From a virus, in IMG/VR virus record IMGVR_UViG_3300028897_000412, positions 1-36,220 of that record: 36,220 bases of DNA; one strand, 5' to 3'. Below are positions 13,816-34,213 of this stretch, one piece after another. Made by a program: the position numbers and the translations under genes. Position 1 is the stretch's first letter. Every line of letters starts with the position of its first letter. The notes under the pieces are model-generated. The model saw only the letters and a list, made by a program, of their open reading frames with translations. It made no database searches and had not been told where the DNA came from.

Positions 13816-14228
13816 TATTTCTCCAGTGCCTTCTTAACAGCATCCGTCAGTTGTTTTTTTACTGTTTGAAATTTTCGAAACATCGCCATGCTAAGCCATG
13901 GCCTTCTTGGCCGCTCTTGCAATTCAACCAACTGACCACTTTCGTTTATTGCCCTGCCGGTTTCCCATAGTTGCCCATACCAGACGTTTGTACCAATGAT
14001 GCCAAAAATAGCACCGGGTTGAACCTTGGCTTCAGAGCCAACCGACCCACGAAGCCTGCCTGTTCTCACCCGCAAAAACTCGCCCGTCAAATGCAACTGC
14101 GCCTGGGCCTTGACGAACTTGCTCGACCTGTCTACCGCTCCATACAGCTCAGAGCGCAAGGAGTTTATTTTTTTCTCCATGTGCTCGTCGATTTCTTCTG
14201 TGTGCGGTATTAGTGTAAAACGGTACAT
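13815..14228 (-). CDS. HK97 gp10-like neck / minor tail protein
   Basis: 137 residues. RVRTGRLRGSV followed by GIIGTNVWYGQLWETG and RPRRPWLSMAM is the signature of the HK97_gp10 family, thought to lie at the head-tail junction between the connector and the tail terminator. The N-terminal part is helical. Position between connector and terminator supports the call. TAATG junctions on both sides indicate coupled translation. Confidence 0.85.
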   Translation of the reverse strand: MYRFTLIPHTEEIDEHMEKKINSLRSELYGAVDRSSKFVKAQAQLHLTGEFLRVRTGRLRGSVGSEAKVQPGAIFGIIGTNVWYGQLWETGRAINESGQLVELQERPRRPWLSMAMFRKFQTVKKQLTDAVKKALEK

Positions 14229-14809
14229 TACCTGCTCCAGCGCTGTATAAGCGACAAGTATTCGGGCAAATAATTAGCCTTCACAAAATTCGTACTGCCG
14301 CCGTGAGGCGTTGATTCGCTTTCGATCCATGCACGCTGCTTTTTCATCACATGATGCCAGTGGGCCACTTGTCTCGCCAGAATCCGGGCCGCGTTTGCTG
14401 GAAACGTCGAAGTATCATAGCCAGCCGTATAAGTAACTTTCAGTGCATGGTGGCCCAGTTCAAAACTATCATAAATATCGAGCATGATAATGCCCTTGCC
14501 GTAGTCCACCTTGTAATCAGTATTCTCAGTTAGTAAGTCGCCAGACGCAAAGGACCATTCAGAGTCTTCCCATACTTGTACTGCGGGGCTGGTTGCTACC
14601 GGGTATCCCCTGAGAATCACCTTGTTTCGCTGCGGCCCTATATCAAAGTATTCTGTGATGGATTGTTTCACCAACACTCTGTCGGTCTGTTCTTCAAAAT
14701 CCTCTTCCACGGCAATGATAATATCTTTGATCTCGTTTGCTTCCGGCTCCGACGCGAGTTGGCACTCTTTTAGTGCCAGAGCTAATGTAACCAGATTACC
14801 GTCGGCCAT
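14228..14809 (-). CDS. Head-tail connector (gp6-like)
   Basis: 193 residues. The N-terminal helices (LALALKECQLASEPEANEIK and following) and the pattern ILRGYPVATSPAVQVW, YKVDYGKGIIML and LKVTYTAGYD match the gp6/YqbG-like adaptor proteins that sit under the portal ring and join head to tail. The C-terminal helix ARQVAHWHHVMKK is also typical. In most siphoviruses this gene directly follows the capsid gene; here 11 kb of accessory genes lie between. The stop overlaps the next start as TAATG. Confidence 0.85.
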   Translation of the reverse strand: MADGNLVTLALALKECQLASEPEANEIKDIIIAVEEDFEEQTDRVLVKQSITEYFDIGPQRNKVILRGYPVATSPAVQVWEDSEWSFASGDLLTENTDYKVDYGKGIIMLDIYDSFELGHHALKVTYTAGYDTSTFPANAARILARQVAHWHHVMKKQRAWIESESTPHGGSTNFVKANYLPEYLSLIQRWSR

Positions 14810-20060: not shown

Positions 20061-20634
20061 CGAATCCCCTCCGCCGAATAATTGCGTCCATGACCCGTCT
20101 TGCCATCTCTTTCGATCCTTTATTGTTGAGATGCACCGAGTCGGGGTAACAGTCCTTTGGAAAGTTTGAAAGGTCGACAAAATTGCCGGTTCCGCTGGCC
20201 AGATTCGCCAGGATTGCGTTATATTCTTTTATGAGAGTTAGGGATTGCATATCGTATCCCGTACTCCCAAAACGCCCAAAATCCGGAACCGAACACAAAT
20301 ATACAATTCGGCCCAAAACGTTCAGCGCTCGCAAAATGCCTCGCATGTTTTTTTGAAAGATCAACGGCGGCGTCTGAACCGACGGCTTGGAATCGTTCGT
20401 GCCTATGCACACTACAACCTCCACCGCTTCCGGATACCTTTTTGTAAGATCGTAAGCGTTTCTTAGTAGGTCGGCGCTTGTCCAGTTGTTGACCCCTTTG
20501 TTTATGCAAATCCATTGCTGTTCGAATTTATTCGACAGCATGTCCGATAGCTCAAACGGGTAAGCCCGGTTATATTCATCTCGCGCCCCATTTGTAATGC
20601 TATCCCCCAGGCAGAGTATAAAGCCGTAAATCAT
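19951..20634 (-). CDS. SGNH/GDSL-family hydrolase (probable carbohydrate esterase)
   Basis: 227 residues. Block I is LCLGDSITNG at residues 7-16 (nucleophile Ser12), block III is CIGTND, and block V is DSVHLNNKG with the catalytic Asp and His. There is no signal peptide, so it acts in the cytoplasm, or on exit if carried in the virion. SGNH enzymes of this size often remove or move acetyl groups on sugars, which fits the surrounding genes. The ATG overlaps the upstream TGA as ATGA. The C-terminal tail of about 36 residues overlaps the start of the 2-epimerase gene by 110 bases in another frame, unusually long for this region. Confidence 0.85.
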   Translation of the reverse strand: MIYGFILCLGDSITNGARDEYNRAYPFELSDMLSNKFEQQWICINKGVNNWTSADLLRNAYDLTKRYPEAVEVVVCIGTNDSKPSVQTPPLIFQKNMRGILRALNVLGRIVYLCSVPDFGRFGSTGYDMQSLTLIKEYNAILANLASGTGNFVDLSNFPKDCYPDSVHLNNKGSKEMARRVMDAIIRRRGFGVEDITKERLGEEHCRSGRYEAGNNKVFSGGTFPRD

Positions 20635-21146
20635 TCTTTCCTCCAGGCCCAAACATTTCCTGGCATCTCTTCCACTTCGCCCAAAAGTTTGGTTACCGCC
20701 TTGCGCACTGTGGCAAAGTGAAAATCGTGCCCGCAAAGCACCCCTCCGCTTTTTACTTTCGGCAACCACGATTCCACATCAATAAGTACGGCATCGTAAG
20801 CATGGTCGCCATCTATAAAAACCGTATCAAAAAAATCTTTCCGAAACATTTTCGCTGCGGCCTCGGAAGTCATGCGCAAAACGCGCAACTGCCTAAACTC
20901 ACCTGTCAACCATACGGCATCAAAATACATACGATCCCACTCTTCGGCGGACAGCTTCATTAACCGTGGCTCGGAAGCACATTCAACGTTCCACGGGTCT
21001 ATGGCCCAGTATTGTTTTATTTCGGGCAAGTTCGCCAAGACCACTTTTGGCATAAGGCTGTCCCAAACGCCGATTTCGGCTACACGAACAGCCCCTAATT
21101 GTCTGATGATTTGCATCCACGATTGCCTATGTGGGCCTATCTTCAT
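20631..21146 (-). CDS. SAM methyltransferase-like, second Methyltransf_24 type
   Basis: 171 residues. The start at 21146 is chosen because TAATG joins it to the previous gene and GAGGA lies 7 bases upstream; a frame opening 30 bases earlier lacks this. Visible motifs are VRVAEIGVWDS, WAIDPWN, FDTVFIDGDHAYDAVLIDVE and GGVLCGHDF, typical of Methyltransf_24. The glycine-rich motif I is degenerate (GVWDSLMPK instead of a G-x-G), so SAM binding should be tested. It differs from its neighbour enough to be an old paralogue or separate acquisition. It ends in an ATGA overlap with the esterase gene. Confidence 0.75.
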   Translation of the reverse strand: MKIGPHRQSWMQIIRQLGAVRVAEIGVWDSLMPKVVLANLPEIKQYWAIDPWNVECASEPRLMKLSAEEWDRMYFDAVWLTGEFRQLRVLRMTSEAAAKMFRKDFFDTVFIDGDHAYDAVLIDVESWLPKVKSGGVLCGHDFHFATVRKAVTKLLGEVEEMPGNVWAWRKE

Positions 21147-21709
21147 TACAGTTTCCTCGCTATTGCCATACCACATTTGCCGGGCTGTCTATGGAGCCTC
21201 GGCTTGCCATCGTAAGGTAGAAGTATTCCTTGGAAATTGGCTTTATCCAGAAAGGTATCAACCGCCCTTCTTATTTCTTCGGAACAGTAATAGTCGTGGA
21301 CAACAATCAAACCGTCCTTTCTTATGGCCGCAGCAAAATTGAAAAGCAGTCGTACCTGGGATTCGTAGTCGGTAAGAGCGTCCACAAAAAGCAAGTCAAG
21401 AGGTATGTTCCACTCGCAATTTGTGGCATCAAGGCAGTGGAATTTCATTCTTAATTCGTGCCTGCGGTTTGCCCCCGCCACATAGAGTTTTTTGCGTTCA
21501 TTTATGTCGATAACATGATGATCGCCACCGAAATACTTCGCATGAAATCCCAGTGCAATGCTGCAATACCCGCCGCCGTAGCCTATTTCTGCGGTTGATC
21601 TTGCTTGCATCAAGCGGGCTAAATGATAAAGGATAGGCGCAACCCAATCAGTTAAGGACGGGCGTGCGTCTTCGGCCAGCTTTTGCCAAAACTCATTCGG
21701 GCTTTTCAT
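21146..21709 (-). CDS. SAM methyltransferase, Methyltransf_24-like
   Basis: 187 residues with motif I TAEIGYGGGYCSIAL, the acidic ribose-binding strand HHVIDINE, DLLFVDALTDYESQV and the post-motif GLIVVHDYY. These resemble the Methyltransf_24/TylF-like group, which often O-methylates sugars or small molecules. ATGA overlap with the GT2 gene upstream and TAATG with the next methyltransferase place it inside a tightly coupled group. A sugar O-methyl transfer is the likely role by context; the acceptor is unknown. Confidence 0.8.
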   Translation of the reverse strand: MKSPNEFWQKLAEDARPSLTDWVAPILYHLARLMQARSTAEIGYGGGYCSIALGFHAKYFGGDHHVIDINERKKLYVAGANRRHELRMKFHCLDATNCEWNIPLDLLFVDALTDYESQVRLLFNFAAAIRKDGLIVVHDYYCSEEIRRAVDTFLDKANFQGILLPYDGKPRLHRQPGKCGMAIARKL

Positions 21710-22554
21710 ATCGGCTCCAATCCTGCTTTTACTCGTTTCTCGCGGATGGAATCCACAGTATCAAGGCAGTTGCGAATGACGCCACGGTCTATCTCTTCGC
21801 GAATTACTGCCGGGTAGTCCCAAAACCTCCAAACTTCTGGATTAGGACAATCATCGGTTTCAAAAACTTTTCGTAAAAGCCACTTTTCAGCAACTTGATT
21901 AAAATCTCTCAACTCAAAACCCCTGTGTTCCGCTATCCATTCTCTTCGCGGCTTGACTCTTCCTGCATGTCGCCATTGCGGCCAAAACTGTCGTTCGTAA
22001 ATACGTTCGGGCCGCTTGATGCAGATATTCCAGACACCCCACCACGTTCGTAAGGCATTTTCGCGAGCCAGGCTCGTCGGCAAGTTGCGCGTTCCTGCCG
22101 CCGGAGCCCATACTTGAGGGTTGTTGCAGTAGAGGGTTTTGTGTGGCGGCTGAAAAGGCAATTTCGCGCTCGTATGTTCGTAGTCGTAAAAAAGCCGTAT
22201 GAGCGGAAACTTGTAGGTCATTATTTTTTCACTTCCGACCAGCTTCCTCACTTTGCGCATCGCGTATGGCCCCTCGGTTTGCAGAACATGGTCGCCGTCG
22301 TGAATAAAAATCCAATCGGTTTCACATTTTTCACAACTGAACGTCCTGGCGTCTTTTAATGTGCCCTCAAACTTAAAAGTCCGGGCCTTCAATCCCCAAG
22401 CGTTGATGCACTCACCCACGATTTCCATGGTGCGATCGCTGCACCCGTTGTCCACGAAAACAAATTCATCAACAATGTCTTTGGCCGACTTAATAGACAG
22501 GTCGACCATTAACTCTTCGTCGTACAGCACCATTGCTGCCGAAATAGTTTTCAC
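21706..22554 (-). CDS. Family 2 glycosyltransferase (GT-A)
   Basis: A 282-residue single-domain enzyme. The N-terminal ISAAMVLYDEE strand, FVFVDNGCSDRT, and the acidic metal-binding motif DWIFIHDGDHVL at about residue 85 define the GT2 fold; no membrane segment is present. It resembles the SunS/WaaE-like group of cytoplasmic GT2 enzymes, which use a nucleotide sugar to glycosylate lipid A core or peptides; which one applies is unknown. GTG is used as start because the family strand begins at residue 2 and the GTGA overlap couples it to the gene before. Its stop overlaps the next ATG as ATGA. Confidence 0.85.
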   Translation of the reverse strand: MKTISAAMVLYDEELMVDLSIKSAKDIVDEFVFVDNGCSDRTMEIVGECINAWGLKARTFKFEGTLKDARTFSCEKCETDWIFIHDGDHVLQTEGPYAMRKVRKLVGSEKIMTYKFPLIRLFYDYEHTSAKLPFQPPHKTLYCNNPQVWAPAAGTRNLPTSLARENALRTWWGVWNICIKRPERIYERQFWPQWRHAGRVKPRREWIAEHRGFELRDFNQVAEKWLLRKVFETDDCPNPEVWRFWDYPAVIREEIDRGVIRNCLDTVDSIREKRVKAGLEPI

Positions 22555-22760
22555 CGCCTTTTTCTCCCGCTCCGTTTTTTACGTTCCTTTTCCATAGCTT
22601 TTTTGCCGACGGTCTTAGGCTCCGGCCACACAACACCGCGCTGGTAAAAAGCGCTCTGCTGGCACTCCTGAGATGTGTATAGTCGGCATGCCACGTTGAA
22701 ACAAAACTCCGAGCCATCCCTGGCTACAAATTCTCCCTTCCCCAATTCACAAATCCCCAT
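22551..22760 (-). CDS. Small Cys-containing basic protein, 69 aa
   Basis: ATG at 22760 has GGAGG 4 bases upstream and overlaps the decarboxylase end by 14 bases. The N-terminal half has four Cys (ICEL, EFCFNVACRL, QECQQ), possibly a metal site; the C-terminus is strongly basic (KERKKRSGRKRR). No family recognised. The TGA overlaps the GTG start of the following GT2 gene as GTGA, so translation is probably coupled. Confidence 0.65.
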   Translation of the reverse strand: MGICELGKGEFVARDGSEFCFNVACRLYTSQECQQSAFYQRGVVWPEPKTVGKKAMEKERKKRSGRKRR

Positions 22761-23232
22761 CGTACCTCCAAATGATTTTGCCGTCGTTGCGATCAACCAC
22801 GAGAGCCACACCGACAAAGCCCTTAAAAAAAGCCTTGAAGATTTTCAGCGCTTTTTCGTAGTTAAATGGTTTGCAGGAAAATATGTCGAAATCCACCTCC
22901 CAATAATCAGTCCACGAATGTACCGTAACATGGCTCTCCCAAAGCATGGCGCAGCCTGTTATTCCTGAATCTTTCGGCTTGGAAGGATGATTGGCCCTAA
23001 TAATCATCGGGTTGTCTATGTACGGTATTAATTTCATCCCTATTTTTTCGGGAAGGGCGCGTACCAACTTAAATATGCCAAACCGCCATGCCAGAAAACC
23101 CGGATCGCATCTGACTAGAGTTCCCAACAAGTGAATCCCGCGATCCTTGCGCTTTAAAGGTTTTTGGCGAGCTGGACGAGCCAGTTGTTTAACTTGTCTA
23201 TATTTGAATCCACGTCGTATTTTCTGCCCCAT
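22747..23232 (-). CDS. speD: S-adenosylmethionine decarboxylase-like pyruvoyl enzyme (SpeD/SpeH class 1b)
   Basis: The core from about residue 32 matches class 1b AdoMet decarboxylases: IHLLGTLVRCDP corresponds to the N-terminal HLL-CD strand, and WESHVTVHSW to the family ESHxTxHTW. Using the Thermotoga enzyme as I remember it, Ser63 (cleaved to make the pyruvoyl group), His68 and Cys83 all have counterparts here at the same spacing (S, +5 H, +15 C in DIFSC). The usual WPE is WTD, so the substrate may have changed; relatives with arginine or ornithine decarboxylase activity are known. The ATG at 23232 has GAGG 7 bases upstream but adds a basic 31-residue leader over the glycosyltransferase 3' end. 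A later start such as TTG 23130 would give about 127 aa, the normal family length. Confidence 0.8.
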   Translation of the reverse strand: MGQKIRRGFKYRQVKQLARPARQKPLKRKDRGIHLLGTLVRCDPGFLAWRFGIFKLVRALPEKIGMKLIPYIDNPMIIRANHPSKPKDSGITGCAMLWESHVTVHSWTDYWEVDFDIFSCKPFNYEKALKIFKAFFKGFVGVALVVDRNDGKIIWRYDGDL

Positions 23233-25706
23233 TCCACAACCTCACCCATGTCCCAACCCTCTTTCAATTTCTGCACTATGATCTGGTCGGGATCGCGCTG
23301 ATACACCGTGCCGAAATTGCCCACCTGTTCGCGTATCGCCCCGGTTTCGTAGGCTACGGGCCAGCACCCGGCGTTCAATGCTTCGTAAATCGCCACCGAG
23401 GCCGATTCATAGATTGACGGGTGAAAATAAATCTTGCTATTGCCCATCATCTCGGCCACTTGCGATTTCGGAACATCAATCCAATAATCAACCCCGGATT
23501 GCTCGATGTGTTTGTTGCCGCCTATCGCGCAGATAGCCCCTTTAAGATTATTGTCTTTGACTACCCGCAAAAATTCCTCTACCCTTTTTTCCGCCGTGTT
23601 GGTTCGTGTGGCATAGCAAATGTCATACTTGCGCTCGCTGAGCGGCTTTGCGGCTTCCCTAAACATCTCGTAGCTATACGGTGGGAAAATCCACCTGTCG
23701 CATTTCAGCTCCCGGCATTTCGTTTCCGTATTAGTCCAGTATTCCTTTACTGGGCCTAAAGCCGTTCCTGTCGGGGAAATTGTCCAGCTTATAACTGGCG
23801 GCGCCCCCTTTGCTTCCACGGCACGTTGAGCTACTACCCAAGAAGCAAAAATTAAATCCCTGCCGCGCCACTCTTCTGGAGCCTCACCGTAAATCCTTTT
23901 CAGCGTAAGCCTTACATCTTCATCGGTAAGATACTTTGCGTCGTGCATTCGCAAAACGTCTTCTTCGCTCCGTATGTCTTCCGGATAAAAACACGAGTGT
24001 AAAATCACATCGTGACCAAGGCGCTTGAACGCATCGGCAAATCTCACCATGGTTGACATTCGTCCGGATATTCTTGCTATATTCCATTCGCATACGGTTA
24101 TTTTGAGTTTGCGCCGTGCATTTGCCAGTTCTTGCAATCGTCCCTTTAACCGACCTTCGATTGTCGGCCACTTGGGTACTACTACAGGTTTTGGCTTTCG
24201 GCTACTGTTCTTACCGTGCAAATGAACAACGCTAAAAGTCTCTTGCTGATATTGACTTCTGTAGCCAAGCCATCGCAAGGCATAGCTCAAACGCCAATCC
24301 GGCCACGGGCCAATACACCAATATTCTGATGCTTTCTGTATTGCCGACTTGCGAAAAACATTTGTCGAACCTATTGGGTTGGCAGTCATGTCAGAGCCAT
24401 TCCGGTGGTAGCTGCGACCGTACAAAACGTGGTCTACTTCAAAAACGTCGCCGTGAATCGTCGCCACGTCCTTTGGCGCGCCAATCAAATACGGCCTAAC
24501 ATCATGCCGCATTTCATCATCGTCATCACACATTCTGACCCACTCGTGGCTGGCCTCGGTTATGGCTCTAATTGTCAAATCGCGTGTATGTTGCCAGTAC
24601 CTCAGTAACATCTCTTCAGGGATTTCCGAAAACATGGAGCTGTCTATAGGAAGATCGTCAAAGCTCTGCTCGCGAACCACGATCTTGCTATAATCGGAGT
24701 AGCGCTGGGCTTCGTACTTCACGTTCCACCTGACGTCCGGAGCAACATACAAATTGATTTCGTCCGGATGCTGATAGGTTACTATCGATTTCATCGCCCG
24801 GTGAAATAACCCCTCGGAACGCGATACCAGCATGCTTACCGAGAGTTTTTCTGCGCCCGCTTCCAGTTTCGTCGTCCACCTTTCGACAAACCGTTTCATG
24901 CTGTTTTTCTTGGCTTCGTTGGAGTCGAAAGTTGTTTGAGTCGTAACGGTTGAGTTTTTCAAGTGCCGTATGCCAGTATTTGGCTCATGGTCAACTAGGT
25001 AACCCTTTTCTTTGGCTCTGAAAATAAAGTCGGTATCCGCATACCATGCCGGGGCATATCCTTCGTCGTAGCCGTTAAGACTTTCAAAAGTCTCTCTTCT
25101 CAGTATCATCCCGCCGGAGCCCACATAGAATGATTTGTTCCTTTTTGAACTGCACGGCATTGCCCCGCCGTCAATGGAGATGTACCATAGCTCGGAACCA
25201 ACAATGTCGGCCCCCTGTACCAGCTTTGAAAAAAGGACTCTGATAGTTTTCGGCTCAACGTACTGATCGTTGTCAAAAAACAAAAGCCATTCCCCGGTCG
25301 CCCGTTTCGCCCCTACGTTTCTTCCCATGGCGCAGCCCAGGTTGACCTCGTTTCGTACATAAACAAGGTCTGGTTGTGTCAGCGCCCAATCCCTTGTGCC
25401 GTCACTGGAACCATTGTCTACCAGGATAATTTCGTAAGGCCGCAAATTAGACGCCCGCAGCCTATGGATACATTCCTTGGTTATTTCCAAAAGGTTGTGA
25501 CATACAACAACCACGGAAATCCTGGCGCAGTTGCCACCGGTTTCCATTTCGGTTTTACATTCAGAATCGCTGGGCTCCAGCCCGAAAACGCTTACCTTGA
25601 AAGCGCTCGCCCCGCATCCTTTTTTTTGACACCGAATCGTAACCGGATAGTCTGCATCAAAAGTAAAGCTCCACCCGCAAACAGCACACTCGCCCCTTAG
25701 TCGCAT
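23154..25706 (-). CDS. Multidomain glycosyltransferase: zinc knuckle, GT2, second GT-A-like, GT4-like, 850 aa
   Basis: Residues about 5-40 form a Cys knuckle (ECAVCGW and RCQKKGCG). Residues about 65-270 are a GT2 domain: ISVVVVCHN, EIILVDNGSSDGT, NLGCAMGRNVGA, the LLFFDNDQ acidic motif and WYADTDFIFRA. Residues about 285-530 look like a second GT-A unit, with VSMLVSRSEG, an acidic MCDDDDEM motif and PDWRLSYALRW. Residues about 545-850 are GT-B/GT4-like: VCEWNIARISGRM, SWTISPTGT, DICYATRTN, and the donor-site helix FHPSIYESASVAIYEALNAG. It could therefore add several sugars in sequence in the cytoplasm. The ATG at 25706 has AGGA 9 bases upstream; a GTG two codons earlier overlaps the previous stop. 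The C-terminus overlaps the decarboxylase homologue by up to 79 bases. Domain calls are firm for units 1 and 3, weaker for unit 2. Confidence 0.88.
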   Translation of the reverse strand: MRLRGECAVCGWSFTFDADYPVTIRCQKKGCGASAFKVSVFGLEPSDSECKTEMETGGNCARISVVVVCHNLLEITKECIHRLRASNLRPYEIILVDNGSSDGTRDWALTQPDLVYVRNEVNLGCAMGRNVGAKRATGEWLLFFDNDQYVEPKTIRVLFSKLVQGADIVGSELWYISIDGGAMPCSSKRNKSFYVGSGGMILRRETFESLNGYDEGYAPAWYADTDFIFRAKEKGYLVDHEPNTGIRHLKNSTVTTQTTFDSNEAKKNSMKRFVERWTTKLEAGAEKLSVSMLVSRSEGLFHRAMKSIVTYQHPDEINLYVAPDVRWNVKYEAQRYSDYSKIVVREQSFDDLPIDSSMFSEIPEEMLLRYWQHTRDLTIRAITEASHEWVRMCDDDDEMRHDVRPYLIGAPKDVATIHGDVFEVDHVLYGRSYHRNGSDMTANPIGSTNVFRKSAIQKASEYWCIGPWPDWRLSYALRWLGYRSQYQQETFSVVHLHGKNSSRKPKPVVVPKWPTIEGRLKGRLQELANARRKLKITVCEWNIARISGRMSTMVRFADAFKRLGHDVILHSCFYPEDIRSEEDVLRMHDAKYLTDEDVRLTLKRIYGEAPEEWRGRDLIFASWVVAQRAVEAKGAPPVISWTISPTGTALGPVKEYWTNTETKCRELKCDRWIFPPYSYEMFREAAKPLSERKYDICYATRTNTAEKRVEEFLRVVKDNNLKGAICAIGGNKHIEQSGVDYWIDVPKSQVAEMMGNSKIYFHPSIYESASVAIYEALNAGCWPVAYETGAIREQVGNFGTVYQRDPDQIIVQKLKEGWDMGEVVEWGRKYDVDSNIDKLNNWLVQLAKNL

Positions 25707-25708
25707 AT

Positions 25709-25942
25709 TCACTCTTCCTTATGTTTTCTCGCGTAATGCCTTTTGGGATGAATCGGGCAATCGTAACAAACCATAAAACTGCCCGACCGCAGCAACTTAC
25801 ATGAACACTTTCTCTTTTTTTCGATACTTACTGTCTCTTCCGGTTTATGGTCTTGCTTCAGTTCCACATAACACTCCGCACATAAATTCTCGACAGCTCG
25901 CGGACTCTTTTTACAGTTGTCGCACCAAATATCTTTCGGCAT
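25709..25942 (-). CDS. Small Cys-rich (zinc-ribbon-like) protein, 77 aa
   Basis: The protein has two clusters: WCDNC near residue 7 with LCAEC near residue 20, and CSCKLL near residue 46 with VCYDCPIHPKRH near residue 58. This is the spacing of two small zinc-binding knuckles. It is the first gene after the capsid terminator. The only SD-like GGGG lies 9 bases before the ATG and is part of the terminator stem, so initiation may compete with hairpin formation. Its stop lies just before the giant glycosyltransferase start, and that protein also begins with a Cys-rich knuckle. Function unknown; nucleic-acid or protein binding is only a guess. Confidence 0.7.
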   Translation of the reverse strand: MPKDIWCDNCKKSPRAVENLCAECYVELKQDHKPEETVSIEKKRKCSCKLLRSGSFMVCYDCPIHPKRHYARKHKEE

Positions 25943-26041: not shown

Positions 26042-27301
26042 TTAGGAATGGGTCAGCATCCGCACGAAAGCAGTAGTTAACGCCGCTTCCAAATCCCACA
26101 TATTCCACAGTTTGAACCGGGTCTTGTTCTCAACGAACAAACCATAGGGGTCAACATGGAGAGCCATGCTGCCGACTCGGCGACCTACCCAAAAATACCG
26201 CAAGTTGCCGAAGGTCAAGAATGCGGTGTTAGCCGCATCAGTACCGGGGCACTTGGTATTCTCGTAGTAGGGGAACCCGTAAATGGTAGGCGGCTTGTTG
26301 CCAGCCGGTTCGTAGAAAATGGGACGACCATTGGAGTCCTTAAGGGTGCGCACGTAATGCATGGCAAGGCCGTGCATGTGGAAAGAAGCATTTTGCTTCC
26401 GGCGTCCGTCAAGTTTCTGGATCATTTCACTGAGCAGATCAGCGGTGGTATTGGCGAACGAAGTTGATCCAGCTCCCATGACAACTGAATGACCACACCA
26501 GGCGGTCAGAAGACCAGAGCAGGGATTGCCAGTACCGTTCCACGCCTGGTTATCCAACTCAAGCCCCATAGCCTCCGCAAACAACTCGGTCAGCCAGGAC
26601 ACTATGTCGTAGTTTGCGTCATACAGGGTCTTGTTTCTCACGGTTGAGTAGGCTCCCACTTCCTGCGGGTCCAGCTCAACTTCCGTGATAGTTGGATCAG
26701 ATGCGGCTGCGGTACTAGACCACGTTACCGATACCCCGGCAGATTCGACAGGCAGCGACAGCTTGCCTGGTCCCATTTCAACCACAGTACCTTGCTGTAG
26801 GATCAGAGACTCTTCACGGGCAAAGCGAACAACCTCGTCCTCCACAACGTCCGGCATGGGCCACAGGTTTCCGGGGTCACCGATTGCGGTTTTTTCCCTG
26901 CGAAGGTGACCGTATTCCTGGTCAAAAAGCTGGCGTGCGCGGTAGTCTTCCTTTACAGCCGCTTCCACGAACAGAACCATATACTTGGCGATCTGCTCGC
27001 GCACCGCATGATCTTCGATGCGGTACTTGTGGCCGCGAAGCTGTTTGTCCATGAGCCGCAAGCCCAGCCGCGAGATACTCCGTCCCAGTTCCTTTTCGAT
27101 GAATCCCTTTACAGGGTCATCTCCCAGGTGAGAAGTATCCCACATCTGGAAAGTGCCAGCCTTCTGCTTTTCGACTGCCTCGGCAATCTTGGCCTGTTCC
27201 TCTTCGGCCTTTTCCTTTGCCTCAAGATAGGCATTGAGCCCGGCGGTTTGCTTTGCCAGGTCTTCAATTACCTCAATCAGTTTCTTTTCGTTCTCTTCCA
27301 T
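26042..27301 (-). CDS. Major capsid protein, HK97 fold
   Basis: A 419-residue protein downstream of the prohead protease. Residues about 1-60 are a highly charged coiled coil (KKLIEVIEDLAKQTAGLNAY and following), typical of the delta domain removed by the protease. The mature part contains the HK97-family core: LPVESAGVSVTWSSTAAAS, LDPQEVGAYSTVRNKTLYDA, the spine-helix region LTELFAEAMGLELDNQAWNG, then GNPCSGLL, YYENTKCPG and LFVENKTRF near the end. It forms the icosahedral shell. AGGAG lies 9 bases before the ATG. Terminator-like hairpins on both sides suggest its transcript level is set apart from its neighbours. Confidence in the family is high; the cleavage site cannot be read from sequence alone. 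Confidence 0.95.
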   Translation of the reverse strand: MEENEKKLIEVIEDLAKQTAGLNAYLEAKEKAEEEQAKIAEAVEKQKAGTFQMWDTSHLGDDPVKGFIEKELGRSISRLGLRLMDKQLRGHKYRIEDHAVREQIAKYMVLFVEAAVKEDYRARQLFDQEYGHLRREKTAIGDPGNLWPMPDVVEDEVVRFAREESLILQQGTVVEMGPGKLSLPVESAGVSVTWSSTAAASDPTITEVELDPQEVGAYSTVRNKTLYDANYDIVSWLTELFAEAMGLELDNQAWNGTGNPCSGLLTAWCGHSVVMGAGSTSFANTTADLLSEMIQKLDGRRKQNASFHMHGLAMHYVRTLKDSNGRPIFYEPAGNKPPTIYGFPYYENTKCPGTDAANTAFLTFGNLRYFWVGRRVGSMALHVDPYGLFVENKTRFKLWNMWDLEAALTTAFVRMLTHS

Positions 27302-28897: not shown

Positions 28898-31800
28898 TTA
28901 TGTCGCAATGATAAAAACTTCATTGTCATCATTGAGTTTTTTAAGTTTTTTCTCTAATTCTTTTATTTTGTCCTCTACGTACAAGATCATCGTAGCCGTA
29001 GAGTAAACATAGCTTGTTTCGGCAGCGTAAGTCCCTGTAATTTGTAGCTTCGCCCCGTCACTCTGCCACACAAACACGGGACAAAAATCTGTATCCCCGT
29101 CGCCATACGCAACCAGCCAACCATCGCTTTTGACTGTAAATAGTCGTAAAAATTTTACGTTGCTTTTGCCAGTTGCTCTAGGCCCGCCACTTCCTTCTAT
29201 AGGATAGGAAAAAGTTTGCGGTATGTATTCTGTATCAGCTTCGCCCCTTACCTCAATACGGCCCCAGGACAGTTTGTACTCAAAAACATTTACCCAAAGG
29301 AGCCGTGGCGGCGGCTTAAAGATATAGTGCGGGCCCGTGGAAATCGGAACGTGAGGTGCCAATTCGGTATTGGCGGCACCGGACGTTTCAACAACCCCGG
29401 AACCTTGGTAAACATTGATCCCCTTGATTGAGGTTTCAATGTGAGCCGCGCCGCCTGTTTGGATAGTTCCGGAGCCGATCCAGCTAAGGCTCTTTCCTAT
29501 AACAGCACTGCCGGATACGGCAATTTGCCCGGAGCCGACATATTCGAAAACATCAATTCTTTCAATGTCAGCGGCTCCACCTGTAACAATTCCCCCCGCC
29601 CCAACGTAAGAATAAACCGCTGTTATAGATGTTATCGCCGCACCGCCGGTTGTCGCGGTTCCGGATGCTTCGTATATGAAAAGTTGGCTTATTCCGGTAT
29701 CAGCAGCTCCACCGGTTTGAATCGATCCGCTGGCTTCGAAAGTAAGCGTTTTGGCGACCTCGGCTTCGCCGGAAACTATTATTTCACCGCTGCCGACATA
29801 GCCGAAAAATTCAATCAAAACAGCGTCAGCCGCGCCACCTGTTTCGATTTGCCCGCTGGCTTCGTAACTAAAGGAAGTTATCTCGACATAATCAGCGCTG
29901 CCGCCAGTTTGTATCGTACCGGATGAAATCCAGCTAAGCGTCTTGGCTAAGGTTGCCGTGCCGGAAACCGTTATTTGCCCGGAGCCTTCAAAGGCTTTCG
30001 TGCGACAAATCTCGGCGACGCCGAAAGTTTGTACTCCCCCTGAACCTTCGTAGGTTTTTGTGCGCGACACATTAGCCGCGCCATTTGTGGCTATTTGCCC
30101 GGAACCTTCGTAAGTCCAGACGCCGCCCATGGAACAGTCTGCGGCACCACTTACAGTAATACCGCCAGACGCTTCAACAACAACCGTTATGACAACGAGT
30201 GCCGCCCCACTGATTGCGATTCCGCCGGTTGCCGTATGGCAAAAGGTTCTTTTGACTATAGCGGAGCCACCGGTTACCGCAGACCCCGTACCCTCGTATG
30301 GATATACTAAGGCTTGCCCTGTTTGCGCTGCACCTTCTGTCTGGATTGACCCGGTTGCTTCAAAATCTTTTGTTGTCGAAACAGAAGCGGCTCCGGATAT
30401 GGTTATTTCTCCAGAGCCGACATAAATCTCGACCTCTATTAAAACTGTATTTGCCGAGCCAAAACTCTGAACAGCACCACTGGCTGTAAATACCTTTGTT
30501 TTTGACCTGTCGGCGGAGCCTGAAACCGTTATCGTACCGGACGCTATAAAACCTTTTGTCTTGGCAAGATCAGCCGCACCGGAAACTGTTATTTGGCCGG
30601 AGCCCTCGTAAGACTTCGTTCGACAATAATCGGCAGCGCCTGAAGTTTGTGTCTTGCCAGAACCCGTATAGGCCCACGTTCCTGCCGTTCCTGTAGTTGC
30701 GGCTCCTGACATGTAAACTGTGCCGGAACCTTCGTAGGGAAAGACCCTGGCAAGCTCTGTACTTGCCGCGCCGGAAGTGGTTATCTGGCCCGACGCTTCG
30801 TAAATACAGATGTGCTCATAGGAAGTGCTTGCAGCGCCGCCGGTTGTTATTTCTCCAGAGCCAATCCAGCTCAACGTTTTGGCAAGATCAGCCGCGCCTG
30901 AAAGATCGATCGCCCCGGATGCTTCGTAGGTTTTTGTCCGGCAATAATCGGCAGCACCGCTGACTATTATTTGTCCCGAACCTTCGTAGGTAAACATACC
31001 AAGGCCGGAAACGTCAGCCGCACCTGAAATTACTATCGTGCCGGAACCAATATGGGTCAGCGTTTTGGCAAGACCGGCTGTGCCGCTTAGTACAACTTGC
31101 CCGGAACCTTCATACGGGAATACTTCCGTCAGTACCGTATCGGCAGACCCGGAAACGGTGACCGCGCCACTTACTTCAAATACCTTTGTTTTGGCAAGGT
31201 CGGCTGCACCCGCAGTTTGTATGTCACCGCTGGCCGTGTACCAATAAACCCTCGACTGTCCCGTAGTAGCAGCACCAGAAGTTGTTATCTGGCCGGACGC
31301 TTCGTAAGCCTTCGTTTTTCCAAGGTCGGCAGCACCGGAAACCGCAACAGTTCCGCTGGCCTCGTAAACACAAATATGATCGTATTCGGTAACCGCAACA
31401 CCAGCAATAACGACAATTCCAGAGCCCTCGTAAAGCCACACATTTCCAAACAAGTATTCGGCGGCACCGGAAATTGTAATCTGTCCGGAACCTTCATACG
31501 ATTTGCTCTTGCTGAAATCTGCCGATCCGGAAGTGGCAATTTGCCCCGATCCGTCGTACACACAAATATGATCGTACTGTGTAGCCGCAGCACCGTCTGT
31601 CTGCACTGCACCGGAGCCGACATAGACAAGTATCTCGACGCCCTCGGTATCCGCAGCACCGCTCGTCGTGATCCCGCCAGTGCCGGAATATACTTTCGTC
31701 TTGCTTACTGTAGCGGAACCACCGATTGTAACCGCGCCCGATCCTTCATAACTAAAGATCGCGCCGGTTGAAGTTTCTGCCGCACCTCCCGTCTGAACAA

Positions 31801-34213
31801 GGCCGGAGCCTTCAAACGATTTTGTCTTGGAAAATAAACCGGCCCCAGCCGTAACTATTTGACCGGAGCCAGTATAGGGATAGACTTGAATCCCTTCAAC
31901 ATATTGCGTAACCGCAGCACCGCTCGTTTGGGCAGTACCAGACGCAACATAGATAAATGTCTGAGTAGTGCTCGTGTCCGCAGCACCGGCGGTTGAAATC
32001 GTGCCGCTTGCAACAAATACGAGCGTCTTTGCCAGCCCAGCCGTACCGGCTATTGCAATGCCGCCGGTCGCTTCAAAGATTTTGGTTTTTGAAACGTGGG
32101 CTTCCCCGCCAGTTGTTACCGCACCTGAGCCAACATACGGAAATACTTCTGTTAGCGTGGTATCGGCAGCACCGCTGGCTTGAATCGACCCGCTGGCCTG
32201 GAAAGATTTTGTCTTGGATATTTCGGCGGCTCCGCCAGTTGTTACCGTCTCTACTTCTATAAGGAGTGTATCCGCACTTCCTGAAGTATCAGCCGTACCG
32301 GACGCGACAAAATCCTTTGTCCGCGCCACACCCGCCGATCCCGCAATTTGAATCTCACCGGAACCCGTGTAGGCATACGTTGTAACAAAAGCTACATCAG
32401 CCGCCCCGGAGGTTTCTATCGTGCCAGAGGCGACAAATGTCTTTGTTTTGGCGACACTTGACGCGCCACCCGTCTGGATCGTTCCCGATCCTTCATAGAC
32501 ACAAGTATGCTGGTACGTCGTGTCAGCCGACCCGGCAGTTTGAATCGTTCCCGACCCAGTGTACTCCCAGGTATTGACAAAAACACAGGTTCCCGCGCCG
32601 CCCGTCTGTGCAAGCCCTGACGCCTCAAAACTTTTTGTTTTGGCCAGAACGGCACTTCCGGACGTTTCGACCAAACCACTTGCACTATACGGATATATGT
32701 AACTCTTTTCTATATCCGCCGATCCGCCGCTCTGAATTAGACCACTGGCTGTGAATGCTTTTGTCGTAAAAACATCAGCCGCACCAGCAGTTTGTGCCTG
32801 ACCGGAACCGTCGTAAATAAAGGTTACGGTCTTTGCCGTATCAGCCGCACCGCCGGTTTGAATCAGACCGGATACTGGATATACAAAAGACCTGCATATT
32901 CCCGCTGAACCAGATGTGGTAACACCGCCGATGGCAGTCCACGCTTTTGTCTTGCAGAACAGGGCCGCGCCGCTCGTCTGCGCGGAGCCTGAGCCGGTAT
33001 ACACAAAGGTTTGAAAGCCTTCAACGTACTGTGTGACCGCAGCACCGGAAACTGTAATTCCACCGGAACCTGTATAGGAATAAATCGCGCCCGCAGACCA
33101 TTCTAGTACTAGGTCGTCGAGTAGGGAGCCCGTGGTTCTAGTGGCGTTGCTATGTAAGCCTCCAAGGCTAATATTGTGCCAGCTTGTCAACGACCCTACT
33201 TGCACCGGCGAAGAATGATCGGTCGTGTCACCTTGGCCGAGTTGGCCGTATACGTTGCGACCCCAGGCCCATATAGTACCGTCGGTTTTAATGGCGACTG
33301 TGAAGTTGGCCCCGCAAGATGTTTGACTCCAATTTGTCAATGATCCCACTTGTACCGGAGAAGAACGATTAGCCTCAGCGCCGCTGTCGCCCAAACCAAG
33401 TTGGCCGTAATTGTTGCGACCCCACGCCCACAACGTACCGTCGGTTTTTAGGGCAACGGTGTGAGCGCCTATACCGGATGATATACCGGCTGAAACGTGG
33501 GCCCAGTTAGATAGTGCCCCTATTTGCACCGGCGAAGAACGATTGGTCGTATCGCCCAAACCAAGTTGGCCGTAGTCATTCTCACCCCAGGACCAAAGTG
33601 TGCCGTCGGTTTTGATGGCGATAACGCTATTGCTGCCGCACTTAGCCTGACTCCAATTCGTCAGTGCTCCCACCTGTGCCGGAGAAGACCGGTGAGTTAT
33701 GTCGCCGAGGCCGAGTTCGCCGTGTGTATTATAACCCCACGCCCATAATGTCCCGTCGGTTTTTATGGCGACTGCGAAGTTGGCCCCGCAAGATGTTTGG
33801 CTCCAATCTGTCAACTCCCCCACTTGTACCGGAGAGGAACGCCAGCTCGTGTCACTCTGGCCAAGCTGGCCGTAGGTGTTAATACCCCACGCCCACAACG
33901 TACCGTCGGTTTTTACGGCGATGGCGTGGCTGTCGCCACACCCAGCCTGACTCCAATTCGTCAACTCCCCCACTTGTACCGGGGATGAACGATTAGCCGT
34001 AGCGCCGCTGTCGCCCAAACCAAGCTGGCCATAATAGTTGTCACCCCACGCCCACAACGTACCGTCGGTTTTTACGGCGAGGGTGTAATTATTCCCGCCA
34101 AAAGCCTTGTCCCAGTTTGGCCCCCCCACCTGTACCGGAGAGGAACGATCATCCGTGTCGCTCTGGCCGAGTTGGCCGTAATAGTTGCGACCCCATGCCC
34201 ATAAAGTAGACAT
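28898..34213 (-). CDS. Giant RCC1 beta-propeller / 59-repeat fibre protein, 1771 aa
   Basis: The start ATG follows the methyltransferase stop directly (TAAATG) with GGGGAG 7 bases upstream. Residues 1 to about 360 hold seven RCC1-type blades, each with G-TLWAWG-N-YGQLG, a SSPVQVG turn and a VAIKTDG strand; seven is the number that closes an RCC1 propeller. Residues about 375-1605 hold about 59 copies of a 20-22 residue unit, roughly Y-E-G-S-G-x-I-x-T-S-G-A-A-x-x-x-K-T, with 20- and 22-residue units often alternating. Residues about 1605-1771 are unique and end in a short coiled coil (VEDKIKELEKKLKKL). There is no signal peptide. Lying immediately upstream of the capsid protease, it is most likely a virion surface fibre or adhesin. 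The repeats are rich in Ser, Thr, Gly and Ala and could be glycan acceptors (inference). I recognise no named family for the 21-residue repeat. Confidence 0.9.
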   Translation of the reverse strand: MSTLWAWGRNYYGQLGQSDTDDRSSPVQVGGPNWDKAFGGNNYTLAVKTDGTLWAWGDNYYGQLGLGDSGATANRSSPVQVGELTNWSQAGCGDSHAIAVKTDGTLWAWGINTYGQLGQSDTSWRSSPVQVGELTDWSQTSCGANFAVAIKTDGTLWAWGYNTHGELGLGDITHRSSPAQVGALTNWSQAKCGSNSVIAIKTDGTLWSWGENDYGQLGLGDTTNRSSPVQIGALSNWAHVSAGISSGIGAHTVALKTDGTLWAWGRNNYGQLGLGDSGAEANRSSPVQVGSLTNWSQTSCGANFTVAIKTDGTIWAWGRNVYGQLGQGDTTDHSSPVQVGSLTSWHNISLGGLHSNATRTTGSLLDDLVLEWSAGAIYSYTGSGGITVSGAAVTQYVEGFQTFVYTGSGSAQTSGAALFCKTKAWTAIGGVTTSGSAGICRSFVYPVSGLIQTGGAADTAKTVTFIYDGSGQAQTAGAADVFTTKAFTASGLIQSGGSADIEKSYIYPYSASGLVETSGSAVLAKTKSFEASGLAQTGGAGTCVFVNTWEYTGSGTIQTAGSADTTYQHTCVYEGSGTIQTGGASSVAKTKTFVASGTIETSGAADVAFVTTYAYTGSGEIQIAGSAGVARTKDFVASGTADTSGSADTLLIEVETVTTGGAAEISKTKSFQASGSIQASGAADTTLTEVFPYVGSGAVTTGGEAHVSKTKIFEATGGIAIAGTAGLAKTLVFVASGTISTAGAADTSTTQTFIYVASGTAQTSGAAVTQYVEGIQVYPYTGSGQIVTAGAGLFSKTKSFEGSGLVQTGGAAETSTGAIFSYEGSGAVTIGGSATVSKTKVYSGTGGITTSGAADTEGVEILVYVGSGAVQTDGAAATQYDHICVYDGSGQIATSGSADFSKSKSYEGSGQITISGAAEYLFGNVWLYEGSGIVVIAGVAVTEYDHICVYEASGTVAVSGAADLGKTKAYEASGQITTSGAATTGQSRVYWYTASGDIQTAGAADLAKTKVFEVSGAVTVSGSADTVLTEVFPYEGSGQVVLSGTAGLAKTLTHIGSGTIVISGAADVSGLGMFTYEGSGQIIVSGAADYCRTKTYEASGAIDLSGAADLAKTLSWIGSGEITTGGAASTSYEHICIYEASGQITTSGAASTELARVFPYEGSGTVYMSGAATTGTAGTWAYTGSGKTQTSGAADYCRTKSYEGSGQITVSGAADLAKTKGFIASGTITVSGSADRSKTKVFTASGAVQSFGSANTVLIEVEIYVGSGEITISGAASVSTTKDFEATGSIQTEGAAQTGQALVYPYEGTGSAVTGGSAIVKRTFCHTATGGIAISGAALVVITVVVEASGGITVSGAADCSMGGVWTYEGSGQIATNGAANVSRTKTYEGSGGVQTFGVAEICRTKAFEGSGQITVSGTATLAKTLSWISSGTIQTGGSADYVEITSFSYEASGQIETGGAADAVLIEFFGYVGSGEIIVSGEAEVAKTLTFEASGSIQTGGAADTGISQLFIYEASGTATTGGAAITSITAVYSYVGAGGIVTGGAADIERIDVFEYVGSGQIAVSGSAVIGKSLSWIGSGTIQTGGAAHIETSIKGINVYQGSGVVETSGAANTELAPHVPISTGPHYIFKPPPRLLWVNVFEYKLSWGRIEVRGEADTEYIPQTFSYPIEGSGGPRATGKSNVKFLRLFTVKSDGWLVAYGDGDTDFCPVFVWQSDGAKLQITGTYAAETSYVYSTATMILYVEDKIKELEKKLKKLNDDNEVFIIAT
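29400..33095 (-). repeat. About 59 tandem 60-66 bp coding repeats
   Basis: The array encodes about 59 copies of a 20-22 residue motif centred on GSG or ASG followed by SGAA or GGAA. Copy 14 (VETVTTGGAA) is shortened. DNA copies differ by many synonymous changes while the protein pattern is kept, which suggests selection on the protein rather than recent amplification, although some pairs remain close. The frame is continuous throughout, so this is coding and not a CRISPR or satellite array. Confidence 0.9.
33140..34213 (-). repeat. Seven RCC1-type coding repeats
   Basis: Seven direct repeats of about 150 bases encode the WAWG-N-YGQLG blade. At DNA level the shared blocks include ccccacgcccacaacgtacc and gttggccgta on the plus strand. 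Units 2 and 6 carry a three-residue insertion (SGAEAN or SGATAN) and are the most alike, suggesting duplication by unequal exchange. The blades form the N-terminal propeller of the 1771-residue protein. Confidence 0.9.

Follow-up and report, generated by a model that had tools for sequence, protein, structure and literature searches.

An AdoMet decarboxylase-fold homologue with a changed loop before the cleavage site in the glycan gene block of a tailed phage

The decarboxylase gene and its glycan gene neighbourhood

The window, which is the whole 36,220-base IMG/VR virus record that was analysed, belongs to a tailed phage with genes for an HK97-type capsid protein, a tail tube, a tail terminator and a tape measure. 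A block of glycan genes lies between the capsid gene and a head-tail adaptor gene (14228-14809), and one ORF of this block encodes a member of the AdoMet_dc superfamily with a predicted class 1b fold (Table 1). This ORF was matched by Pfam PF02675 (AdoMet_dc) with 51.4 bits (E 1.6e-13; gathering score 25) and, in profile searches, by two PHROG AdoMetDC families. Its score against TIGR03330, the NCBIfam AdoMetDC equivalog, was 37.9 bits and thus below the cut-off of 75.65, which is a weak criterion, divergent phage AdoMetDCs having been left out of the scoring. No second AdoMet_dc homologue was found elsewhere in the 36,220-base record.

Table 1. Positions of the genes and protein features discussed in the text.
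Feature	Position	Strand	Details and basis
HK97-type major capsid protein	26042..27301	-	profile matches; upstream of the glycan cluster
GT2 + GT4 fusion glycosyltransferase	23154..25712	-	852 aa; Pfam; upstream, 79 nt overlap with the decarboxylase gene
AdoMetDC-fold pyruvoyl decarboxylase homologue	22747..23232	-	161 aa; ATG start; ORF intact
N-terminal leader (residues 1-28), basic and predicted to be disordered	23149..23232	-	recoding test, model; overlaps the upstream gene
Changed loop, residues 70-89 (PYIDNPMIIRANHPSKPKDS)	22966..23025	-	alignment columns
Thr92, at the T. maritima Ser55 position (G-V-S-G)	22957..22959	-	alignment columns
Glu99-Ser100, where self-cleavage is expected, with Ser100 as the presumed source of the pyruvoyl group	22933..22938	-	spacing and alignment
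His105 (T. maritima His68)	22918..22920	-	alignment, spacing
W107-T108-D109, replacing WPE	22906..22914	-	alignment
Cys120 (T. maritima Cys83)	22873..22875	-	alignment, spacing
Small ORF	22551..22760	-	69 aa; GGAGGT ribosome-binding site; four Cys; basic KRK-rich tail
GT2 glycosyltransferase, phrog_13126	21706..22554	-	282 aa; Pfam and PHROG
Methyltransf_24 methyltransferase	21146..21709	-	187 aa; Pfam
Methyltransf_24 methyltransferase	20631..21176	-	181 aa; Pfam

The genes around the decarboxylase form a chain of overlaps, which runs from the GT2/GT4 fusion through the decarboxylase (79 nt), the 69-aa ORF (14 nt, at the decarboxylase stop), the next GT2 gene (4 nt, at its start) and the first methyltransferase (4 nt) to the second methyltransferase (31 nt). 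These overlaps suggest translational coupling. A GDSL gene and a WecB-type epimerase gene were also found downstream, in addition to the GT2 and the two Methyltransf_24 genes. Absent from an earlier sequence-only reading of this DNA, the 69-aa ORF downstream of the decarboxylase gene had no match in Pfam or PHROG.

Two further observations concern the genes for head proteins. A 1771-aa protein with many RCC1 repeats is encoded at 28898-34213 (-) of the window and adjoins the head genes. Genes for portal, terminase-like or capsid proteins lie close to the AdoMetDC homologues of phiYS40 (L005), contig L032 and the window (22747-23232), whereas the neighbours in HTVC115P are DNA polymerase and ribonucleotide reductase genes.

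Processing site, predicted structure and start codon

The distances from Ser100 to His105 (5 residues) and to Cys120 (20 residues) were identical to those between Ser63, His68 and Cys83 of the T. maritima enzyme, the roles of which are taken from PMC10407285. The motif ESHVTVH was the sole ESHx[ST]xH across the six frames of the window. All eight positions that are invariant in an alignment of 49 sequences (G90, E99, S100, H101, H105, D116, C120 and R148) are kept in the protein, which is 21-36% identical to its relatives. A threonine at the T. maritima Ser55 position is common to many of these relatives; directly before Glu99, nearly all of them carry Ala at the place of Trp98 (22939-22941).

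An AlphaFold2 model of the 161-aa protein had a mean pLDDT of 88.2, with 92-98 in the core and about 52-69 in the first 30 residues. It was aligned by VIA-align with T. maritima AdoMetDC (1vr7) over 113 residues with a Z of 16.5 at 2.0 A, and Foldseek agreed with this placement. Judged by the model, the class 1b AdoMetDC fold may be assigned to the core with confidence. Because the residues, their spacing and this fold all fit, self-cleavage would be expected between Glu99 and Ser100. The earlier description of an AdoMet decarboxylase homologue with Ser, His and Cys intact, exact class 1b spacing and expected processing at the ESHxTxH site was thus well supported.

The sequence-only reading had also remarked on an unusual basic leader, provided that the ATG start was right. 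This ATG at 23232 is preceded by GGTGAGG. The gene overlapping the leader was recoded at random with synonymous codons according to phage codon usage; the leader frame stayed open in 345 of 20,000 recodings, and none of these 345 reached the observed net charge of +9. Because the frame was so rarely kept open, and never at this charge, the basic leader is probably translated from the ATG. It is predicted to be disordered and is not present in the relatives, whose starts lie close to the G-x-H motif. The codon TTG at 23130 was rejected as the start since translation from it would leave out both the beginning of the first strand and His34, which is nearly invariant; an alternative ATT at 23136 has AAGGA 7 nt upstream, ATT being a very rare start codon.

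Relatives and substrate motifs

Relatives were collected by scanning IMG/VR and 84,980 species, each represented by one genome, which yielded both SpeDC/SpeDA-type and AdoMetDC proteins. Pyruvoyl ornithine (SpeDC) and arginine (SpeDA) decarboxylases derived from AdoMetDC are known, and phage homologues with either activity have been published (PMC10407285, PMC9992855). In the tree, the protein formed one clade (support 98/96) with three uncultured phage proteins from IMG/VR (L010, L026 and L027). This separate, long-branched phage clade sits inside the part of the tree holding SpeDC/SpeDA-type proteins, a label that rests on published relatives and not on assays of the sequences used. The branch of the protein itself is very long. 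In AU tests, neither its grouping with AdoMetDC (p 0.205) nor that with phiN3 and HTVC115P (p 0.262) was rejected, and the SpeDC side of the tree also contains phiN3, an AdoMetDC confirmed by experiment.

Further scans for the subfamily added L027 and otherwise returned the same contigs. A contig scan found no members in genome contigs, and single-protein scans of IMG/VR found no close relatives of the decarboxylase, the capsid gene or the 282-aa glycosyltransferase. From these sequences, the subfamily appears to be rare, so far from phages only and nearer to SpeDA/SpeDC than to classical AdoMetDC. The homologue on contig L032 (4.2 kb), where HNH and terminase-like genes are its neighbours, could not be placed because of its divergence.

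The label of the SpeDC/SpeDA part of the tree draws on the grouping of L053 and of the SpeH_1 protein of Microcystis phage MaAM05 with Vampirovibrio, the SpeD2 protein of which decarboxylates arginine (PMC10407285). MaAM05 (MW495066.1) carries tandem speD homologues followed by speE and speB (L002:3513-6291); one of the pair has WPE and the other resembles the Vampirovibrio arginine decarboxylase type, and the region would appear to give this single phage a complete pathway from arginine to spermidine.

The replacement of WPE by WTD, from which the sequence-only reading had derived a possible change of substrate, was confirmed at residues 107-109, but as a sign of the substrate it failed. The proteins of phages phiYS40 and phiN3 were shown to be AdoMetDCs, as they gave spermidine back to E. 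coli lacking speD (PMC9992855), yet they read WID and FCD, respectively. Since a profile search found a single AdoMet_dc gene in phiN3, no phiN3 sequence other than the one analysed here is a candidate for the protein assayed in that paper. This phiN3 gene (L118:780-1196) also has DSH in place of ESH. When the WTD region was aligned with the subfamilies, as had been proposed, Trp107 was found to be kept as in AdoMetDC, and Asp109 keeps an acid at the position of the WPE glutamate, as in phiYS40. A change of WPE alone is uninformative about the substrate.

A changed substrate is still favoured on the basis of the tree position and of the loop that precedes the cleavage site. Residues 70-89 contain neither F-x-P-x-G of AdoMetDC nor QPYVFPY...PED of the SpeDC-type relatives, and the whole clade is without F-x-P-x-G and PYVF in this loop. 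SpeDC-like marks (IGM, GITG and FSCK-x-F) are present. Gln, Thr, Phe and Tyr, at positions shown only in a figure, are diagnostic of SpeDC; the protein studied here has the Thr of GITG and neither the QPYVF loop nor the HTF seen in SpeDC-type relatives. One proline, at a position that the text of PMC10407285 leaves unstated, separates AdoMetDC from arginine decarboxylases. Prolines are missing at the equivalents of T. maritima P51 and P71, as far as the uncertain loop alignment allows, and the P71 equivalent is also missing in phiYS40 and phiN3, which makes it a weak criterion against AdoMetDC. Loss of the AdoMetDC proline matches SpeDA without being specific to it.

Proposed function and comparison with known systems

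Judged by its sequence, the protein has about an even chance of decarboxylating L-arginine or L-ornithine. The position on the SpeDA/SpeDC side of the tree, the IGM, GITG and FSCK-x-F marks, the shortfall against TIGR03330, the published phage homologues with ODC or ADC activity and the lack of a spermidine synthase, both among the families recognised in the window and in all 23 related virus records searched, count for this. The two AU tests, the long branch, phiN3 on the SpeDC side, the absent QPYVF and Trp98 count against it, and so does the lack of a recognised agmatine- or putrescine-using enzyme in the window, itself possibly a fragment.

From the residues, spacing and fold, we infer that the proenzyme would cut itself between Glu99 and Ser100, that Ser100 would become the pyruvoyl cofactor and that His105, Cys120 and probably Thr92 would assist. 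L-Arginine or L-ornithine would be the most likely substrate, giving agmatine or putrescine. Because the gene overlaps its neighbours in a glycan cluster beside head genes, the enzyme would probably be translated together with the glycan genes, late in infection. The likeliest use of the product would be more polyamine for phage DNA or translation. The chances for this reading as a whole, a pyruvoyl arginine or ornithine decarboxylase whose agmatine or putrescine raises the polyamine supply, are evenly balanced.

A divergent but genuine AdoMet decarboxylase feeding the spermidine synthase of the host is a rather unlikely alternative. It would agree with the confirmed AdoMetDCs that also lack WPE, with the retained Trp107, with Asp109 as the acid at the position of the WPE glutamate, like that of phiYS40, and with the AdoMetDC grouping left unrejected by the AU test; however, the tree position, the loss of F-x-P-x-G, the score below the TIGR03330 cut-off and the failure to recognise speE in the window or the related virus records argue against it.

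The alternative that agmatine, putrescine or dcAdoMet, an aminopropyl donor, supplies an amine that is attached to a phage-made glycan, the enzyme being a member of a decoration pathway, is derived from the gene neighbourhood. The place inside a glycan cluster, pointed out earlier from the sequence, was verified and recurs in two relatives. In L010, the order is GT2, methyltransferase, decarboxylase, radical SAM and Methyltransf_24; in L026, the end of a GT2 gene (E 2.9e-4, below the Pfam cut-off) overlaps the start of the decarboxylase gene; and in both, methyltransferases and sugar-modifying enzymes surround the decarboxylase. A GT2 gene thus adjoins the decarboxylase in three of the four subfamily phages, whereas 19 other SpeDC-type virus records had no GT2 match within a distance of 3 kb. 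Calculated by hand, this difference would have a p of about 0.002, but it is a post hoc comparison on a small sample whose records are not independent (L013 and L014 share the gene sequence), and some records are cut near the gene. In those 19 records, the nearest GT2 was about 4-6 kb off, in three related records. The overlapping genes also speak for decoration. However, the L027 member comes after lysis-region genes near a contig end, its record holds no match to GT2, and literature searches gave nothing useful joining AdoMetDC with phage glycosyltransferases or on amine-linked glycans. Because no enzyme attaching an amine to a glycan (ligase, amidotransferase or aminopropyltransferase) was recognised in the window or among the examined neighbours in L010 and L026, decoration is a possibility and not a finding, and a quite unlikely one. 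It is very doubtful that a phage branch of the AdoMetDC fold was recruited to glycan pathways, with an amine or aminopropyl donor built into the glycan of the virion or the host surface.

A homologue with little or no catalytic activity, retained to regulate or partner another protein like the trypanosome prozyme, would fit Trp98 beside the cleavage site and the very long branch but is highly improbable, as all family-invariant catalytic residues are retained and the record holds no second homologue to regulate.

The protein with the proposed arginine or ornithine decarboxylase activity is a previously undescribed variant of a familiar enzyme type and has so far been found only in phages. Substrate shifts in the AdoMetDC family are already known, and few phage members have been assayed. 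Since simple motif rules fail for divergent members such as those of phiYS40 and phiN3, changes of WPE should not be read as changes of substrate. With its new loop and its repeated location next to glycosyltransferase genes, this distinct phage clade offers a compact test of whether phages use polyamine chemistry beyond spermidine synthesis.

Among known systems, the phage SAM lyase (PDB 6zm9) has a distant likeness in fold, with a Z of merely 6.7 as against 16.5 for AdoMetDC, which according to the tool is a range that may reflect just a common arrangement; identity with this lyase was rejected. The class 1b AdoMetDCs of T. maritima (TM0655) and phages S-PM2, phiYS40 and phiN3 share the fold, the ESH...H...C spacing, W107 and the acid at the WPE glutamate position, whereas the protein studied here lacks F-x-P-x-G and WPE, has no recognised speE and is placed apart from them in the tree, although this separation is not significant. 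With SpeDC and SpeDA, it shares the fold family, the processing residues, IGM, GITG, FSCK-x-F and the lack of a spermidine synthase found nearby; it differs from them in the missing PYVF loop, in HSW instead of HTF, in the 28-residue basic leader and in its location in a glycan cluster. L010, L026 and L027 belong to the same clade and are likewise without the PYVF loop, and two of these three lie beside GT2 genes; unlike the protein of the window, they have WPE or WPD, Ala before ESH and no leader, and they are only about 35% identical to it.
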